Source: Methanosarcina acetivorans C2A (GTDB taxonomy: Archaea; Halobacteriota; Methanosarcinia; Methanosarcinales; Methanosarcinaceae). From it: 64,000 nucleotides of DNA. Below are positions 47,601 to 64,000 of this stretch, piece by piece. The DNA lies in NCBI RefSeq assembly GCF_000007345.1, contig NC_003552.1, positions 2,542,001 to 2,606,000 on the forward strand. The letters run 5' to 3'. The notes beneath the pieces were generated by a model. The model did not search any database. It was given only the letters and a program-made list of their open reading frames with translations, and was not told the DNA's origin. A program made the translations under genes and the position numbers. Within the stretch, counting starts at the first letter, position 1, and every line of letters begins with the position of its first letter.

Positions 47601-47839
47601 GTAGATATTATACAATTTTTGGGAGTTAAATGTTTTGGTGGTGAGTTGAATAAACAGGATTAAGCCTTATTTTCCGATTACTGTGAATAACGATTAAGCG
47701 TGTGGAAGGTTTTAATAGGCTGAAATATTTAAGAAATCATGTTTTATCCGCTTGTTCAGCTAAAAACTCCCCGTGACATGCATAAGGTTTGCACCAACAG
47801 CCTAATACTTTGCCCTTGAGTCTTGATATTGTCATGTGA
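47601..47839. other. Spacer without recognisable genes
   Basis: AT-rich, no supported feature. Confidence 0.4.
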
Positions 47840-48071
47840 GCTTCAAACACAAACGTTACCATTTATGCATGTCCCAATAGGATTACCTCAAATGGAGAAG
47901 GTAGCGTATACGCAATTCGTGGTATAGCTTCTTGTCGCACCTGCGGAAAGTCACATATATTCAATCAGCGCAAATATTATCATGAAGACCATAACCAAGC
48001 TCAGGATTCTTTATCCAATATGGACTGTTATAAGCATATTCTCATTGCTATACGCACCGACACTCACTAAC
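47840..48071 (+). pseudogene. Possible zinc-ribbon (transposase-like) fragment
   Basis: One frame reads VTIYACPNRITSN, then GIASCRTCGKSH and FNQRKYYHEDHNQA, resembling the zinc-ribbon and basic region at the start of IS transposases. It has no start codon (TGA at 47837-47839), a single Cys in the first knuckle and soon stops. It overlaps the start of the next gene. Probably an IS remnant. Confidence 0.3.
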
Positions 48072-53979: not shown

Positions 53980-54199
53980 AGAAATTCCAGTTTAGGTTTA
54001 TACCTACTGTGCTTATTTATATAGTAAATATGAAACGATATATATACATATGCATAAGCGGCTACCGGAATCACCTACCTTACAGGGACGTCCGCAGAGC
54101 TAAAGTTACCATCAGGTAATTCGGGTAATTAGAGTAAATAGGGAAACTGTTTTTCCATTATCCCTAAATTCTAAATATCCCTAGTTCCAATTTGTCTTC

Positions 54200-55393
54200 A
54201 TGTCCAGACAAGCTGAGGATTTACTGGTTAGGACTTTAAATGATGTGTCTTCTCTATTTGGAAAGGAGAGGTACAAAAAAGCCCTTGAAAAACTTGATAA
54301 AGCCGAAAAACTGGCGGAAAAAACAAAGAGGACGGACATCCTGTGCCGGGTTCTACTGCAAAAGGGAGCGATAATGACTGCCATGGGTAAGCCGGAAGAG
54401 GGCCAGGACCTGTACGATAAAGCCCTGGATATTTTCAGGACTTCCGATTTAAATGAGCCAGAGAGTTCTGTTCTTAAATCTACCCTTTCTAATACCTTTA
54501 GTGAGCTTGCAAGACACTTTAAAATGACAGATAGTATCGAAAATGCAGAAAAGTGTTACATGAACGAAATAAAAGTCTACGAGATTCTTCTGGAGAAGGA
54601 TCCCGAAGATGAGGACTCAAACCTGGAAATTGCCAGAATTTTCAAAGCTATTGGGGATCTATATGAGTATTTTAAGCCAGAAGAGATGGACCCCGAAACT
54701 GAAAGGCAGTATTACAAAAAAATTCTGGACATAAGGGAGAAAGCCTTTGAACTGCTTCCTGATAGTGAGACCTATATATATGGTCTGGCCAATGCCCTTA
54801 GAAATCTTGTTGATTATTATATAATTCGGCAGGACTACGAATCCGCGATCCAACTTCAAGAACGCGTTGTTGAGGTCATGGAGGAACTTATTGATCTTCT
54901 GGCAAACTGGAAGGACCTGAAAGCCAAGAGCAATACCTATGACAAATTGGGTTCCCTTTATGCGGAAATAGGAAAAGAGGAGCTTGCACAGGAACAGTAT
55001 TCAAAAGCCCTTGAATATTATGAGATGATTTTTGATGATGAACTCTGGCCCCTTTCTGTTAAGGCGATGCTGGCTTCCGAACTCATGGAACGCGGAAAGA
55101 CCCTCCTCCTTTCAAAGAAATACGAGAGTGCAAAAGATTCTATGGATATGGCCCTCGATTTCCTTGAAGGAGTAGATAAAGAAGAACTGGAAGACAGCAC
55201 AAAAGAATCCCTGGACCTAACATATGTTTTTCTTGGAGAAGGAGATAAGGAAGAGTCGGAAGACTCCGGTTATCTGTCTGAATTGGCTGGAATCTTCAGG
55301 GAGTATGCAAAAACTCTCTCAGACTTGAACCGGAATGAAGACGCAGAAGAGTTTACTGCAAAATCGGAAAAAATATTGGGGAAACTGGCTTAA
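54200..55393 (+). CDS. TPR-repeat protein gene 2 (short paralogue)
   Basis: A 397-residue TPR protein. It begins MSRQAEDLLVRTLNDVSSLF like the other two TPR genes and shares EKALEKLDKAEKLAE and the C-terminal EYAKTLSDLNRNEDAEEF. It is about half their length, lacking the central repeats. No signal peptide or catalytic domain is present. It is an adaptor-type scaffold; the partner is unknown. It starts at an ATG 17 bp into a promoter region shared in style (TTCCAATTTGTCTTC) with TPR 1 and TPR 3 and has no Shine-Dalgarno, suggesting a leaderless transcript. Confidence 0.85.
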   Translation: MSRQAEDLLVRTLNDVSSLFGKERYKKALEKLDKAEKLAEKTKRTDILCRVLLQKGAIMTAMGKPEEGQDLYDKALDIFRTSDLNEPESSVLKSTLSNTFSELARHFKMTDSIENAEKCYMNEIKVYEILLEKDPEDEDSNLEIARIFKAIGDLYEYFKPEEMDPETERQYYKKILDIREKAFELLPDSETYIYGLANALRNLVDYYIIRQDYESAIQLQERVVEVMEELIDLLANWKDLKAKSNTYDKLGSLYAEIGKEELAQEQYSKALEYYEMIFDDELWPLSVKAMLASELMERGKTLLLSKKYESAKDSMDMALDFLEGVDKEELEDSTKESLDLTYVFLGEGDKEESEDSGYLSELAGIFREYAKTLSDLNRNEDAEEFTAKSEKILGKLA

Positions 55394-55594: not shown

Positions 55595-56364
55595 CGGATT
55601 GCTTGTTGAGTACAGGGACTCTACCAGCCGATGAAGGTGGGCTGCTTTTACGATTAAGCCGAACATTCCCGTGCAGGACCATGTTCATGAGCGCGATCCT
55701 GACCATCGTAGAGTCAAAATCAAAGCCTTCACCATATCAGGCTTGTCTACTGCTTAAAAATGTACCTGTAAGCCATAAACGAAACCTGCCTTCCCGCATG
55801 CCGGGTCGCAGATCCTGTCATTGATATCAGGGTCCACAAGCTCGACTATCATTCTGATTATGTGCCGGGGATCCTGAACTGCCCGTTCTTCCCTGCAGTT
55901 GCGAGCTGGCTTAAGAGGTATTCGTAAATGTCTCCCTGCACATCCGAAGTCTGCCCTGAAATATTGAGTTCGTCAATAATCCCTACCGCTTCCTGCACAA
56001 GGGAAGGCTTCGGGATAATGAACACGGCATCTTTCATATGCTGGGAAAAAAGCGTCTTCTCCCCATCATGAATATTCTTGATAAACGGAAACACAACGTC
56101 TCTGACGTGTTTCAGCATCTCCTCAGCAGATTTGTGTTTCCATTCCGACCACCTGCACTCCTCATGCCCTTCAAAAATAGATACATAAGCCTTTCCGGTA
56201 GCATTTGCCCGCCTCTGTTCCAGTACGTCCATATCCTCAAGTCTCTTCATGAAAATGAGGTACGACATCTGCTCAATGGACTGCAAGGGGTTGGACAGCC
56301 CGCCGCTCCAGAACCTGTCCCAGAGGGCATCTATTTTTGACTTTTTTTCGGGTGGGAGTCTCAT
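55595..56364 (-). pseudogene. hsdM: hsdM relic (type I restriction-modification methyltransferase)
   Basis: The N-terminal 165 residues are well preserved (IDALWDRFWSGGLSNPLQSIEQ, then SYLIFMKRLEDMD, GQTSDVQGDIYEYLLSQLA), ending at GKNGQFR. A frameshift at about 55865-55875 follows. The next frame continues as HIIRMIVELVDPDIND then the SAM motif start DPACGKAGF, stops, and after an internal deletion shows GFDFDSTMVRIALMNMVLHGN (to about 55640). It was an N6-adenine methyltransferase subunit. The catalytic NPPF motif is absent. It cannot be functional. Confidence 0.85.
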
Positions 56365-56764: not shown

Positions 56765-56794
56765 TTCTAATACTCTGTGTTCCAAATTTCCTTT

Positions 56795-59143
56795 ATGTCC
56801 AAACAGCTTCAAGACTTAATAGATAGGGAATTGATGAATGCTTCCTCTCTTGTTAAAAAAGGAAAGTACGAAAAGGCCCTTGAGAAACTTAATAAAGCTG
56901 AAAGATTGGCTGAAAAGGCAAAAAATTCGGAACTTTTTTGTCGAGTCCTGCTTCATAAAGGAGAGATATTGGATTCCATGGAGAAGTCACGTGAAGCGCT
57001 GTTGCAGTATGAAAAAGCTCTGGAGATTTCGTTACGCTTTTTTATGAGTGATCCACAGGATTCTTCCTCTCAGCGATGTCTTTATAATTCTATTGATCTC
57101 ATGGAAAATATTCTTAATAAAATAGATGATGTTTCGGTCGCAGAGAAGTCCTATGAACGCACTAATAAATATTTTGGAAAAGTAATAGGCACATATGAAA
57201 AGCTGATTGCTAAATATCCTGAAAACCATTATTACTTAATAAATTATATAATAACAGTGAAGAATTTAAGAGGGTATTTATTAAATGTTGGTAAATCTGA
57301 AAAGCAAATCCAGCTTATCAACAGTACTCTGGAAACTTTCAAGGAAATATTAAATATCCAGCCCGAAAATCCGGAAATATTTGAAAAATTAGATGAATTT
57401 GTGAAGGATCTGGGAGAAGAATTTCTGGATGATGAGCTTTTTGAAAATGCGAAAAAAATCTATGAGCATCTACAGGGAATTTACAGGGGCCTTCTGGAAA
57501 ACTATCCCGATAATGAGCTTGTACTTCATTATCTTATTGTCTCCTATGGGTATTTTGGGAATCTATATTCGAGGCAGAGATACCTTGATAGAATTGAAGA
57601 GACTTACCGGCCAGCCCTTTCAATAGTAGAAGACAACTTGCGTAAAAACCCTGAAAATACCGCATTTCTTGAGAACCTGGGTAAAATTCACGAGAAAATA
57701 GGGGTCACTTATTCGGAAGCGAAAGATCAGGAAAAAGCAAACTCATATTATGAAAAAGCGCTTGCAAACTTTGTGAATCTTAAAGGAAAGGCTTCGGAAG
57801 ACCCGGATTATCAGGCTGAACTTGGAAAAATTTTTGCCAATTTAGGGGAGCGTTTCGAAACAATAAATCGCATCGAAAATGCAGCAAAATCCTATTTGCA
57901 TAAAATTGAAATCTATGATTCACTCTTTGAAGAAGATCCAGAGGATGAAGATGTCAAAATGGATAATATCGACACCTTAATGCATATCGGAAACCTCTAT
58001 GCTGAAGCAGGATATACGGAGCCGGCAAAAAAATATTATGAAAAAGCGATTGAGGGATACGAACGGCTGCTTTCCGAAAACCCGGAGTCGACTGATTTTG
58101 AGATTGGCATTTCTGACATCCTCACCGCTCTTGGAGATATGTATGCGAAAGTGGGAGAGGAAGAAACGGAACCTGAAGATGCGGAACTCGAAACTGCACG
58201 GGAGTACTACGAAAAGGCCCTCAAACTGAATGAAAAAGAATTTGAACGGTATCCTGATGATTTAACATGCCAGGACGAGCTTATCAGGACTCTTGGCAAG
58301 CTTGGAGATTCATTTGCAGTCCAGGACAGGTACGAAGATGTAATTCCATTTTACCGGCGCATTGTCGAGATCAAGGAGCAGGTGGTCAGGGATGACCCCC
58401 GGAGATGGCTGGCTGTAAATTCTCTGACTAATTTCCTATATCAGCTGGGGTCCTATTATGGTAAGATTGAAGAAGTGGAACTTGAGAGGAAACAATATTC
58501 AAAAGCTGCGGAACTTTACTCAAGAGCTTTGCACGATAAAAACCTTCAGCATCAGATAAAAGAAGTGCTGGCTGTTGAAGTTCAGTCACATGGAACAGCC
58601 CTCCTTAAATCCGGAAAATATAATGCTGCAAAAGAAGCCCTGGATCTTGCCCTGGAATTCTTTGAAAACCTGTATGAAGAAGACCCGGAAGACGAAGAAA
58701 ACTATCCTTTCATCTGTGAAGCCCTCTTCCAGAACGGAAATTTGCAAAGAGCCCTGGAAAACTTCGAAGAAGCGGCTAAAAGCTTTGATTCCCTGCTTCC
58801 TATTGTGGAAAAACTTCTCGAATCAAACCCGGAAAGTCCAGAAGCTCGTGAAAATGCTGGAGTTACATATACTAATGTTGGAGAAGTATATTCTCTTAAC
58901 GGGGAGTATGAAAAGTCAAAGCAGGCTTTTGAAAGAGCCCTGACCATAAATGCAGTTCTTCTTGAGGAAGAACCGGATAACTCCCTCTACAAGATAAACC
59001 AGGCGCAAACATTTGAGAAATATGCAAAGTTACTCTCAAAACTGGGCAGAAGTGAGGAAGCAGAGGATTACAGCACAAAATCCGAGGAAATATACCGGAA
59101 ACTGGCTGAAGAGGACAGCGATGAAGGAGACATTAATGAATAA
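56795..59143 (+). CDS. TPR-repeat protein gene 3 (full length)
   Basis: A protein of about 782 residues made of tetratricopeptide-type repeats throughout. ATG 56795 is chosen over the in-frame GTG 56777 because it aligns with the starts of TPR 1 and TPR 2 (MS[KR]). Repeats of the form AREYYEKALKLNEKEFERYPDD and YSLNGEYEKSKQAFERALTI are easily seen; the protein is very acidic. No signal, membrane or catalytic domain is present. Such proteins scaffold protein complexes. It is followed 36 bp later by the 74-residue gene. It is the only undamaged full-length member here. Confidence 0.88.
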   Translation: MSKQLQDLIDRELMNASSLVKKGKYEKALEKLNKAERLAEKAKNSELFCRVLLHKGEILDSMEKSREALLQYEKALEISLRFFMSDPQDSSSQRCLYNSIDLMENILNKIDDVSVAEKSYERTNKYFGKVIGTYEKLIAKYPENHYYLINYIITVKNLRGYLLNVGKSEKQIQLINSTLETFKEILNIQPENPEIFEKLDEFVKDLGEEFLDDELFENAKKIYEHLQGIYRGLLENYPDNELVLHYLIVSYGYFGNLYSRQRYLDRIEETYRPALSIVEDNLRKNPENTAFLENLGKIHEKIGVTYSEAKDQEKANSYYEKALANFVNLKGKASEDPDYQAELGKIFANLGERFETINRIENAAKSYLHKIEIYDSLFEEDPEDEDVKMDNIDTLMHIGNLYAEAGYTEPAKKYYEKAIEGYERLLSENPESTDFEIGISDILTALGDMYAKVGEEETEPEDAELETAREYYEKALKLNEKEFERYPDDLTCQDELIRTLGKLGDSFAVQDRYEDVIPFYRRIVEIKEQVVRDDPRRWLAVNSLTNFLYQLGSYYGKIEEVELERKQYSKAAELYSRALHDKNLQHQIKEVLAVEVQSHGTALLKSGKYNAAKEALDLALEFFENLYEEDPEDEENYPFICEALFQNGNLQRALENFEEAAKSFDSLLPIVEKLLESNPESPEARENAGVTYTNVGEVYSLNGEYEKSKQAFERALTINAVLLEEEPDNSLYKINQAQTFEKYAKLLSKLGRSEEAEDYSTKSEEIYRKLAEEDSDEGDINE

Positions 59144-59714: not shown

Positions 59715-60126
59715 AATGCTCTTTTAAGTTATTAAAGTTATAAGGACTTATAAGTTACTATTAATTACTTTTAATTAGCAGTTCCTGAAAAATCGAATCA
59801 AAATTTATTTCGATCTCTTCTGTCTTTTGGAAAAGATCACTTTCCTTCGTTGAGCGTGGCAGAAACTATTAGCATTACAATATGACTGCACATGTCCGAA
59901 AAAGTGTTATCCTATCCTCGAAAAGGGTTTTTAAATTCGCATGGTATCGAAAGCCTCCGCCAGCTTGTCTGGCGGCCCTTCCCCATAAGAAGAAAAAAGT
60001 TGAAGGAAGAAGGAGTAAAAAGGCTGAATGCCGAAAGAAAAAGCTTGAAAAAGCAGTAAAGAGAGATAAAAGAAGGAATAAGTTGTTATTTGTCAATTTT
60101 TTTACTTAATTGGGTTGTAATTTACC
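59715..60126. other. Intergenic region with a small hairpin
   Basis: CCGCCAG/CTGGCGG (59957-59963, 59969-59975) is a perfect 7-bp stem with a 5-nt loop. A 75-codon frame (59882-60109) is extremely Lys/Arg-rich with no start signals and was not accepted as a gene. Confidence 0.45.
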
Positions 60127-60240
60127 GATTCTCTTCTTTTTTGTCTTTTTATGGGACACGCCGCTCTCCTTCATCGAGCGTGACAAGAACGGTTCGGTAA
60201 GCCGAATATAGTTGTACGGGTCAGAGTTCAGTATTCAATT
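60127..60240. repeat. 114-bp direct repeat, left copy
   Basis: Matches 63229-63342 over the same length with about five differences. Both copies lie just beyond an hsdS 3' end, contain a CGCTC/GAGCG hairpin and a pyrimidine run, and probably represent the original hsdS terminator region. Together they bracket the retron. Confidence 0.85.
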
Positions 60241-60258
60241 TTTTGCAATTCATGCTTA

Positions 60259-61086: not shown

Positions 61087-62775
61087 TTATCCACAATTTT
61101 TATTAAAATCATATAATATTCTCTTCATTTCGTCTCTCATAATTAGACAATAAAATTGATCTTTTTCTTTGGCCTTATTATTATTTCTCATCATTATTTT
61201 TAATTCTTCACATAATTCATTGTTCAGATTGAAATTAGTTACTATCGAAATTAAATCCAAATCTTCATAGCATGTACATTTAAAAAACTGTCTGAATGTA
61301 CTGTTTTCGCTATCAGTATTTTTTCTCCTTTCATTCTTGTCTGATATATCACTTGATTTCATAACAAATGCTACAGCTATGGTATCACCATAAAACTCAG
61401 TAGTAGCTTTCATGTCATAAATTTCATGACCATGATGATGTCCACCCGTCGTTCCAGTATAATGACCTATAATGTATTTCATACATTTCTTATATATTTC
61501 ATTTTTAACATCCAAACAGTCGCTACAAGCTTCAACCCCGTGTATTTTCGTACTACATTTTTCTTTCAGGTTGTTCAACTGTTTTTTAAACTCTTCTGTA
61601 AATGCACCTTCTGGAAGTTCTACAATCTTTGTAAAGAATCCTAATTCATCAAATTTAACTAAAATAGTTTTAGACACTCTTTTCAACTGATTTGTGTTAA
61701 TTTCGCTCTCTTTTATTTCTTTTATATGTTCATTATATTCGGACCAATCAATTTTTTTAAGTGATTCTATTAAAGGTGTCGCAAATTCAGGATCAACCGC
61801 ATTGGCACATCCTAAGTGTCCAAATATTCTTTCTCTAAAAAAAGGATCATTTGATCTATTTTCTGCAACTGGACCATTAGTTTGGATATTATTAACAATT
61901 GCTTTTAGATTCTTTTTCTTGTTCCTACCAATACTAACTTTGTCGTTGACCACTAACCCTGTAACTTTTTGTCTTGAGCCTTTTGAAAACATTCTAGTTT
62001 TTTCATGATTCACAACAAATCCATCATCCTCAATGATCCCAATAATTTTTTCTTTGTGCATGGGAAGCTTATATGAGCCAGAAATCGTGACATCATCTGC
62101 ATATCTTGAATACCTAAAATTTCGTCTTGCACAATATTTTGCTATCTTTTTGTCAAGTTTTAAAGCGACCAAGTTGGCTAACATTGGACTTGTAGGTGCA
62201 CCCTGAGGTAATTTCCAATGATAAGTACAAAGATCAGCAAGTGTCCAAGCAATTTTTTTAGTATACCCAGCCGATTTAAATACATAATAAACAGATCTGA
62301 AATTTATGCTTGGGAAAAAATCTTTAATGTCGACACCTAATACCAGATCTTGATTTACATGCACTTTAGCATTAGTAAAAATCGTCTTACCAGGAATGAA
62401 TCCATGTGCGTAATCGCCAGAATTTAACTTATATAAAATATTGTCTAAAATCCATCTTTGAATATATTTCATTTTTTTAGATGGTGCATTGATTTCCCTA
62501 AAATCCCCATTTTTCTTAGGTAGTTTAAATGTAATATATCCTTTCTTTTTGTTTGACAGAAAAAGATTAACTTGTTTAAGCGAAGAATTTGTTAGTTTGC
62601 AAAAGTGGTTGATGTCATATATGTAAGGTAAATTTTTTGATTTTAATCGTTTGAAGGACTTGAATTGTTCTTCGTATTCCTCTTCAGTTAGGTTTGGAAT
62701 TATGCCTTCTTCTGTGTAATTTTTAAACAAGATTTGTAATTTTTCATCTTCTGTTAGTTTATTTTCCACAGACAC
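61087..62775 (-). CDS. Retron-type reverse transcriptase with C-terminal extension
   Basis: A reverse transcriptase of about 562 residues. Domains in order (numbering from 62775) are an N-terminal helical region and INAPSKKMKYIQRWIL (RT1/2). Next come VDIKDFFPSINF (first catalytic Asp), LPQGAPTSPMLANL (RT4), RYSRYADDVTIS (YADD, about residue 225) and KVTGLVVNDKVSIGR, the VTG motif of retron RTs. From about residue 350 a unique extension has a CSDCLD pair, GGHHHGHE and EFYGDTIAVAFVMKSSD, then YCLIMRDEMKRIL. The D..(x)n..MKS spacing could be a PD-(D/E)xK-like core (inference). The frame opens at 62829, but GTG 62775 or a nearby codon is the likely start, outside the a2 repeat. It makes msDNA from the adjacent ncRNA. 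Confidence 0.88.
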   Translation of the reverse strand: MSVENKLTEDEKLQILFKNYTEEGIIPNLTEEEYEEQFKSFKRLKSKNLPYIYDINHFCKLTNSSLKQVNLFLSNKKKGYITFKLPKKNGDFREINAPSKKMKYIQRWILDNILYKLNSGDYAHGFIPGKTIFTNAKVHVNQDLVLGVDIKDFFPSINFRSVYYVFKSAGYTKKIAWTLADLCTYHWKLPQGAPTSPMLANLVALKLDKKIAKYCARRNFRYSRYADDVTISGSYKLPMHKEKIIGIIEDDGFVVNHEKTRMFSKGSRQKVTGLVVNDKVSIGRNKKKNLKAIVNNIQTNGPVAENRSNDPFFRERIFGHLGCANAVDPEFATPLIESLKKIDWSEYNEHIKEIKESEINTNQLKRVSKTILVKFDELGFFTKIVELPEGAFTEEFKKQLNNLKEKCSTKIHGVEACSDCLDVKNEIYKKCMKYIIGHYTGTTGGHHHGHEIYDMKATTEFYGDTIAVAFVMKSSDISDKNERRKNTDSENSTFRQFFKCTCYEDLDLISIVTNFNLNNELCEELKIMMRNNNKAKEKDQFYCLIMRDEMKRILYDFNKNCG

Positions 62776-62817
62776 CACTATAACCAACTTAAAAAAATAT
62801 ATTGATAAATATGTTTT

Positions 62818-62999
62818 AGTTGCCCTCACTAAATCGTTGGGCGATTTACTGCATGGAATATCCAGTGCAGCCAGGGTACCGGCGGAGCGGATATTTCATG
62901 TTTTCGGCCAAAGGTTTACCTTTGCTAAGTATGGCATTTGCATGGTGTAACACCACACATAACTCTCTGGCGAGAGTTAATTCAAAACTGAGGGCAACT
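62818..62999 (-). ncRNA. Retron msr-msd non-coding RNA
   Basis: Perfect 11-nt inverted repeats AGTTGCCCTCA (a1 at 62999-62989, a2 at 62828-62818) close a region of about 182 nt. Read 5'-3' on the minus strand its stems are AACTCTC/GAGAGTT (62978-62961), TGGTG/CACCA (62955-62943) and CAAAGG/CCTTTG with loop TAAA (62924-62909). A 9-bp stem around ATATCC/GGATAT (62897-62855) and AAATCG/CGATTT (62847-62831) follow. The arrangement, ending about 40 nt before the RT start, is that of a retron. The branching guanosine is not certain; an AGC occurs at 62926-62924. Confidence 0.82.
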
Positions 63000-63030: not shown

Positions 63031-63228
63031 TTGACGATGTGAAACAGTTATTAAGGAAAAGTAAGAAAAATGATAACTTTTTTCATTCATATTTATTCAC
63101 AATGATCCAAAGTAAATCGATCTTTGTGTATCCATCCGCTTTAAAAAGACCTTCCGATGATTGCTGTTAGTAGTAAATGATAACCGAGTAACAAACGCCC
63201 CTGCCATCTTGCCTGACGATCTTTTGCT

Positions 63229-63342
63229 GATTCTCTTCTTTTTTGTCTTTTTATGGGACACGCCGCTCTCCTTCATCGAGCGTGACAAGAACGGTTCAGT
63301 AAGCCTAATATGGTTGTAAGGGTCAGAGTTCAGGATTCAATT
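63229..63342. repeat. 114-bp direct repeat, right copy
   Basis: The partner of 60127-60240, placed 16 bp beyond the stop of the hsdS gene. See that entry for the comparison. Confidence 0.85.
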
Positions 63343-63358
63343 TCTTAAAACTTCATTT

Positions 63359-64000
63359 TTATGAAAACAGTTCTCCTGTGAAGGCTTTCTGCATAAGGGA
63401 GTCGAAGAGGTTATTGATTTTGAAAGAGGATTGTTGTTGAGATACAGTTGTTTTTTCAATTTGGTGTACCATCTCAGCAAATCTGAGCTGAAGATCAAGA
63501 GATGCAATCAAAGCAGGGAAATTTTTCAATTGAGTCGAATTTATGCTTGCAATTCCCGTAGTTTGTTTTGCAGATTTGAGGAAATACATTTTTCCATAGG
63601 TGCTACCTATAAGCATACTCAAATACTCAGGAACTAGACATTCTCTGTTGACTCTTACTCTAAATATGTGGTTTTGATGTATACAGGTTGGAATTTGTCT
63701 GTTCCAAACAGCACCCCTTCCCAATTTATCGGGATCTCCACCTTCGGTTAGTAAAATATCCCCACCTTGCAGTGCATATTTTTCTACATCTGATGGTAAA
63801 ACTTCAATCTCTTTAATTTCTGTTAAGTCCAGATAACCATCCTGAACGTTTGCCACTCTCAAATAAGGAACAAAAACAGTAGGCTTTCCAGCAAGTTTTC
63901 TTCCCTTTGTAACTCCAGATACGATTTCAGAAACATCTTTCAACTTTATTTCTTTCCAATTTTTAGGATTTACTACCGGATCTCCAAACATCTCCAAAAA
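63359..64000 (-). CDS. hsdS: Type I restriction-modification specificity subunit HsdS, C-terminal part
   Basis: The frame runs off the window end; 213 residues are visible. They form one target-recognition domain (NWKEIKLKDVSEIVSGVTKG, LRVANVQDGYLDL, GGDILLTEGGDPDKLGRGAVW, then CIHQNHIFRVR). A conserved helical spacer ends FDSLMQKAFTGELFS. FLEMFGDPV at the edge of the window is the usual linker before the second recognition domain, so the missing part lies beyond 64000. HsdS selects the DNA target of HsdM/HsdR. No intact hsdM is in the window. Confidence 0.9.
   Translation of the reverse strand, partial: FLEMFGDPVVNPKNWKEIKLKDVSEIVSGVTKGRKLAGKPTVFVPYLRVANVQDGYLDLTEIKEIEVLPSDVEKYALQGGDILLTEGGDPDKLGRGAVWNRQIPTCIHQNHIFRVRVNRECLVPEYLSMLIGSTYGKMYFLKSAKQTTGIASINSTQLKNFPALIASLDLQLRFAEMVHQIEKTTVSQQQSSFKINNLFDSLMQKAFTGELFS

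Follow-up and report, generated by a model that had tools for sequence, protein, structure and literature searches.

The 64,000-nucleotide stretch of Methanosarcina acetivorans C2A DNA analyzed here (the window) carries on its minus strand a retron reverse transcriptase (RT) gene that reads in frame into a C-terminal tail of about 196 residues, with a structured msr-msd RNA and its a1/a2 inverted repeat lying next to the RT (Table 1). The minus-strand open frame at 62829-61087 holds 580 codons when counted from a GTG at 62829. That GTG falls within the a2 repeat of the retron RNA, so a GTG at 62775 is preferred as the likelier start, giving a 562-residue protein with the same numbering as the initial annotation of this DNA.

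Table 1. Positions of the retron components, candidate residues and flanking repeats. Coordinates refer to the window except for the last row, which is numbered within the two relatives.
Feature	Coordinates	Strand	Remarks
124-bp direct repeat, copy 1	60121..60244	n/a	flanks retron unit; 94% identical to copy 2
C-terminal effector-like module, aa 367-562 (~196 aa)	61087..61677 (stop codon included)	-	in-frame fusion to RT
Q496	61288..61290	-	Gln in following predicted helix; invariant 8/8
K473	61357..61359	-	candidate catalytic lysine, end of next predicted strand; invariant 8/8
H447 H448 G H450 E451 xx D454	61414..61437	-	candidate catalytic/metal cluster; invariant 8/8
C407, C417, C420, C431	61483..61557	-	candidate zinc-binding cluster; all four Cys invariant 8/8
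Retron RT domain and thumb, aa 1-366	61678..62775	-	RT profiles, NAxxH, YADD, VTG
msr-msd non-coding RNA	62813..62999 (187 nt)	-	directly upstream of RT
a2 repeat TGAGGGCAACT	62818-62828	-	pairs with a1
msd hairpin	about 62852-62901	-	within msr-msd RNA
a1 repeat AGTTGCCCTCA	62989-62999	-	pairs with a2
124-bp direct repeat, copy 2	63223..63346	n/a	flanks retron unit
Alternative tail	L007 1501-2289; L008 877-1665		no Pfam match

A retron RNA and a III-A-like reverse transcriptase

When the DNA preceding the RT gene was compared between the window and ten archaeal relatives, all 11 loci proved to hold an msr-msd RNA, in which the AGTTGCCCTCA/TGAGGGCAACT inverted repeat surrounds conserved stem-loops and one variable long hairpin. 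In the 11-sequence alignment 93.4% of cells are paired and 18 of 35 pairs have changed on both sides, a result that none of 500 shuffles equaled, and sliding the partners along the alignment as a control lowered pairing to 35-54%. The RNA occurs in a single copy in the genome. With an RNA of such strong covariation adjoining the RT, the locus is a real retron.

The RT domain matches RVT_1 (E 8e-21), scores above the cut-off of the NCBIfam model retron_St85_RT (NF038233) and carries the hallmark motifs NAxxH (as NAKVH), YADD and VTG. Its top PADLOC profile is RT_III-A (E 4e-103), which places it in the III-A clade, and among solved structures in the PDB the nearest in sequence is the Ec86 RT (E 1e-51). 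The closest bacterial plasmid RTs are 337-345 residues long, lack the tail and adjoin an upstream gene pair, in one annotated case a phosphoribosyltransferase (PRTase) and a small protein. No PRTase or winged-helix partner gene adjoins the RT in the window or, as judged from ORF lists, its relatives, and the loci read share no conserved neighboring gene; the genes flanking the archaeal RTs are unrelated and differ from genome to genome, leaving the RT gene to stand alone. A more distant archaeal retron-like RT of 317 residues, near a contig end (L069), is without the tail, and its locus also has a 300-residue ORF of unknown function.

The retron unit is flanked by two 124-bp direct repeats lying 3102 bp apart, of which the genome holds 26 other copies at 71-83% identity, and recombination between such repeats is a possible route of retron gain or loss. 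By eye, type I restriction genes (HsdR and HsdS) occupy 63359-64000 and continue beyond the window to about 69087, with HsdS interrupted by a transposase-like ORF (64307-65626); an N-terminal HsdM fragment lies at 55858-56364, on the other side of the retron from HsdS. Two similar-looking TPR-rich proteins are encoded nearby (54185-55393 and 56777-59143, plus strand), and a group II intron domain is found at 47770-47903 on the minus strand (Rfam group-II-D1D4-7, 55 bits).

Conservation and exchange of the C-terminal tail

The initial annotation had pointed to the C-terminal extension of the RT as a possible nuclease-like effector with a Cys/His cluster that could bind a metal. The sequence landmarks on which it drew lie on the minus strand where it had placed them: VTG at 61957-61965, CSDCLD at 61510-61527, GGHHHGHE at 61423-61446, EFYGDTIAVAFVMKSSD at 61348-61398 and YCLIMRDEMKRIL at 61114-61152. 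No match in Pfam, NCBIfam, PADLOC, PHROG or PDB sequence profiles explains residues 367-562. A PADLOC scan of the tail with the thumb gave a weak RT_III-A match and no Toprim, protease or TIR domain, and POLQ_helical matched four members over the RT thumb, below its cut-off. Sub-threshold PHROG and Pfam matches to the tail were dropped as inconsistent between members. A search of viral contigs, plasmids and phages for the tail found nothing credible, with one Alteromonas phage match (E 0.3) disregarded.

Eight archaeal genomes (the window, L003/L009, L004, L005, L006/L011, L010/L015, L034 and L016) carry this tail linked to the same RT, and the tail's dN/dS of about 0.08-0.21 (Nei-Gojobori) indicates purifying selection. 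Because it has been kept in eight genomes at so low a dN/dS, the tail reflects more than chance, and the extension is, as had been proposed, a distinct effector-like module. In one of the eight (L016 560-2262, L029) the RT is frameshifted and the tail is still open as a 256-residue frame, which could reflect decay, an assembly error or a freed effector.

Alignment of the eight members gives thirty invariant columns, the most conserved patch being TGG-x-HHGHE-xx-D. The H447-D454 cluster sits where the first long strand is predicted to begin in both of the low-confidence models described below. The suggested Cys/His metal cluster holds up in its four cysteines, whereas H412 is present in only seven of the eight members; zinc binding by this segment is a candidate function, judged from sequence. 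The acidic residues put forward as catalytic, E460, D464 and D476 (in EFYGDT and SSD), proved variable, and the invariant acids are instead E451 and D454, just upstream.

Three close relatives carry a different tail. In L007 and L008 an unrelated tail follows the same RT (70 and 77% identical) and thumb, with similarity ending at about residue 360 of the window RT, and this alternative tail is also found in L017. Phylogenetic trees of the RT recovered neither tail type as one clade in any of 200 bootstraps and required two to three changes, with most branches weakly supported. Third-position identity between the window and L003 rises from 0.54 up to about residue 328 to 0.77 beyond it, a jump matched in none of 2000 shuffles, and a recombination breakpoint at about residue 328 thus parts the RT from the tail between these two lineages. 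Unrelated tails on close RTs, the conflict in the trees and the jump near residue 328 together establish that tails move between RTs at the thumb joint, and the tail is therefore an exchangeable module.

To the eye the alternative tail looks the more canonical PD-(D/E)xK domain (LDFKFLV...VCAEFK...KQLPLYL), and profile comparison revealed no similarity between it and either Mrr or the window tail. An 849-residue frame in L017 (616-3165, L030) joins a retron RT and the alternative tail to a further C-terminal region resembling nitrilase/carbon-nitrogen hydrolase, with a marginal Pfam match (E 0.096).

Evidence bearing on a nuclease-like effector

The locus has no separate effector gene, which makes the tail the most likely retron effector. 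The bacterial relatives pair a tail-less RT with an adjoining gene pair and the archaeal RTs stand alone with a tail, which argues that the tail occupies the effector's place. What kind of effector it might be was approached through predicted structures and profile comparison.

AlphaFold2 modeled the thumb and tail (251 residues) with low confidence (pLDDT 48.7), and a shorter construct with L010 as query was also of low confidence (pLDDT 54.1, pTM 0.57). Both models show a helix, two long strands, a helix, a strand, a helix, a strand and a helix, with an additional short strand before the pair in the first, an order that is suggestive of a restriction-endonuclease-like core at these pLDDT values. 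Foldseek matches of the 251-residue model were dismissed as meaningless. For the second model, VIA-align returned ten rows with Z of at least 2, of which rows 1, 4, 5 and 7 are restriction enzymes (AspBHI 2.5, MspJI 2.3, EcoT38I 2.2 and 2.1) at values within noise; by our reading these matches cover the catalytic domains. The Foldseek list for this model includes FokI, XPF and MGME1, every E value being above 0.2. The structural case is thus a suggestive one, made by the repeated appearance of a single superfamily, as individual Z values lie within the noise.

Profile comparison leans in the same direction. Against a profile of 21 archaeal Mrr_cat sequences, hhalign gave the tail a local score of 18.1 (z 4.1) and a global score of 13.3 (z 4.7), each reached in 2 of 500 column permutations, a figure uncorrected for the choice of Mrr, which had been picked as target by eye before the test. 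Control profiles for PIN, HNH and PRTase drawn from the same genomes were weaker, none rising above permutation in both local and global modes. K473 aligned with the lysine of the Mrr (E/Q)xK motif in both alignments, and in one of them D454 fell opposite the Mrr aspartate. HMMER against Pfam found no PD-(D/E)xK or Mrr match in the tail, and in single-sequence hhalign Mrr proteins were not enriched over decoy ORFs. With Mrr chosen by eye and the single-sequence version giving no enrichment, the resemblance is a lead of moderate strength; conversely, the alternative tail lacks any Mrr signal despite its PD-(D/E)xK look, and the Mrr test can therefore miss such domains.

The assignment to PD-(D/E)xK nucleases made in the initial annotation thus survives in part. 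The profile and weak structural lean towards Mrr and the position of K473 at the ExK lysine favor it, but the D-x(n)-(E/Q)xK signature is absent from all eight members: D454 and K473 are invariant, yet the residue two before K473 is always V, L or I. Since the acid/amide is replaced by an aliphatic residue throughout, we do not file the tail as a PD-(D/E)xK enzyme, and regard it as nuclease-like, outside the canonical family, on fold evidence that is suggestive only. Nevertheless, E451, D454 and the HHxH group may supply the metal ligands, in which case the tail would work much as a PD-(D/E)xK enzyme does.

The departure from the signature leaves room for other readings. The tail might be an effector of a different kind, a new zinc-containing hydrolase or RNase with its own fold and an HHGHE...D...K site. 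That no sequence family matches the tail, and that the TGG-x-HHGHE-xx-D patch is unlike classical PD-(D/E)xK sites in addition to the missing (E/Q)xK, would fit such an enzyme, whereas the order of secondary structure and the profile similarity favor Mrr_cat above the three controls (PIN, HNH and PRTase); we consider this possible, with the odds against it. The missing acid/amide would equally suit a dead PD-(D/E)xK-like domain, or a structural or nucleic-acid-binding extension serving in sensing or tethering, with the effector encoded elsewhere. Inactive restriction-endonuclease-like domains are a known precedent, but the polar cluster is invariant rather than decayed, dN/dS is low and the loci read share no conserved neighboring gene that could encode such an effector, all of which make this reading improbable.

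Two further assignments fare worse against the profile controls. The four cysteines and HHxH cluster suggest to the eye an HNH-type or other Cys/His (treble-clef) nuclease, but the HNH profile fell short of the permutation mean in local mode and came close to it in global mode, and Pfam gave no HNH match, so that we think this very unlikely. That the tail is a diverged PRTase, the normal effector of type III-A retrons now joined to its RT, would accord with the PRTase gene beside one bacterial relative and with a global score reached in only 2 of 100 permutations; the local score, however, equals the permutation mean, Pfam gave no PRTase match and no phosphoribosyl-binding motif was seen, making this the least credible of the readings considered.

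Our preferred explanation takes as its base the RNA, the RT, the fusion and the conserved, exchangeable tail, all of them directly seen, and describes a one-gene retron in which a III-A-like RT carries a diverged Mrr-like nuclease as its effector tail, an identification that we put at about even chances. The tail would then be a metal-dependent PD-(D/E)xK-like nuclease with a four-cysteine zinc-binding segment in front of it and a non-canonical active site made up of E451, D454, K473 and perhaps H447, H448 and H450. The Eco2 RT-Toprim fusion suggests by analogy that the RT-msDNA complex would keep the tail inactive, that virus interference with the msDNA or the complex would free it, and that the freed tail would cut nucleic acid and so stop the infected cell. 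The retron is probably an anti-virus system. More tentatively, with the balance somewhat against it, the locus could represent an undescribed retron class, so far found only in methanogen-related archaea, that uses exchangeable effector cassettes fused in frame to the RT, of which one would be a nuclease with a new HHGHE-D-K site.

Comparison with known systems

Retron studies have been almost wholly bacterial, and a complete single-gene Methanosarcina retron, comprising RNA, RT and fused effector, offers a simple system for testing archaeal retron defense. Rest and Mindell (2003, cited in PMC6868368) had earlier pointed to an RT of Methanosarcina acetivorans, presumably the one in the window, as a putative archaeal retron; the citing text in PMC6868368 does not describe its RNA, its tail or tail exchange. 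A literature search, for which the 2020 retron classification paper lay outside the scope, found no match to the phrase 'archaeal retron' and none on this tail, which is likely new to the literature.

In its layout the protein resembles Retron-Eco2 (Ec67, type I-C RT-Toprim), where one protein likewise comprises RT, thumb and C-terminal effector. The isolated Eco2 Toprim is toxic and RNase-active, and the full-length protein is not toxic (PMC12405507). Unlike Eco2, whose effector is a Toprim domain, the window protein is matched by the PADLOC RT-Toprim profiles over the RT part only, and it reaches 221.6 with the NCBIfam Ec67 fusion model, whose cut-off is 450. The single-gene RT-effector fusions of types XI (RT-protease) and XII (RT-TIR) in PADLOC are similarly built, although their profiles too match only the RT part here.

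By RT profile and closest plasmid RTs the system is nearest to type III-A retrons (PRTase, winged-helix protein and RT), from which it differs in having the 196-residue RT tail in place of adjoining PRTase and winged-helix genes. Retron-Sda1, with a type III-A1 RT, sets a precedent for swapping out the PRTase effector that accompanies a III-A RT: HipA/DUF3037 replace the PRTase there, and these genes defend without the RT (PMC12548924). In Retron-Sda1 the replacements are separate genes, whereas here the fusion is in frame, and the natural RT-effector swaps described above, with a breakpoint mapped to the thumb, illustrate how one effector gives way to another in retrons.

Among nucleases, the tail resembles Mrr_cat, MspJI and AspBHI weakly in profile and structure, with the same order of predicted elements and K473 falling on the catalytic lysine. 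The Mrr-type active site follows E---D-X(12)-QxK (PMC4926085), from which the tail departs in its D-x18-K spacing with an aliphatic residue two before the lysine, in its HHGHE motif and in the preceding Cys4 segment; should the tail prove to be a nuclease, it would be one whose active site differs from the textbook signature.
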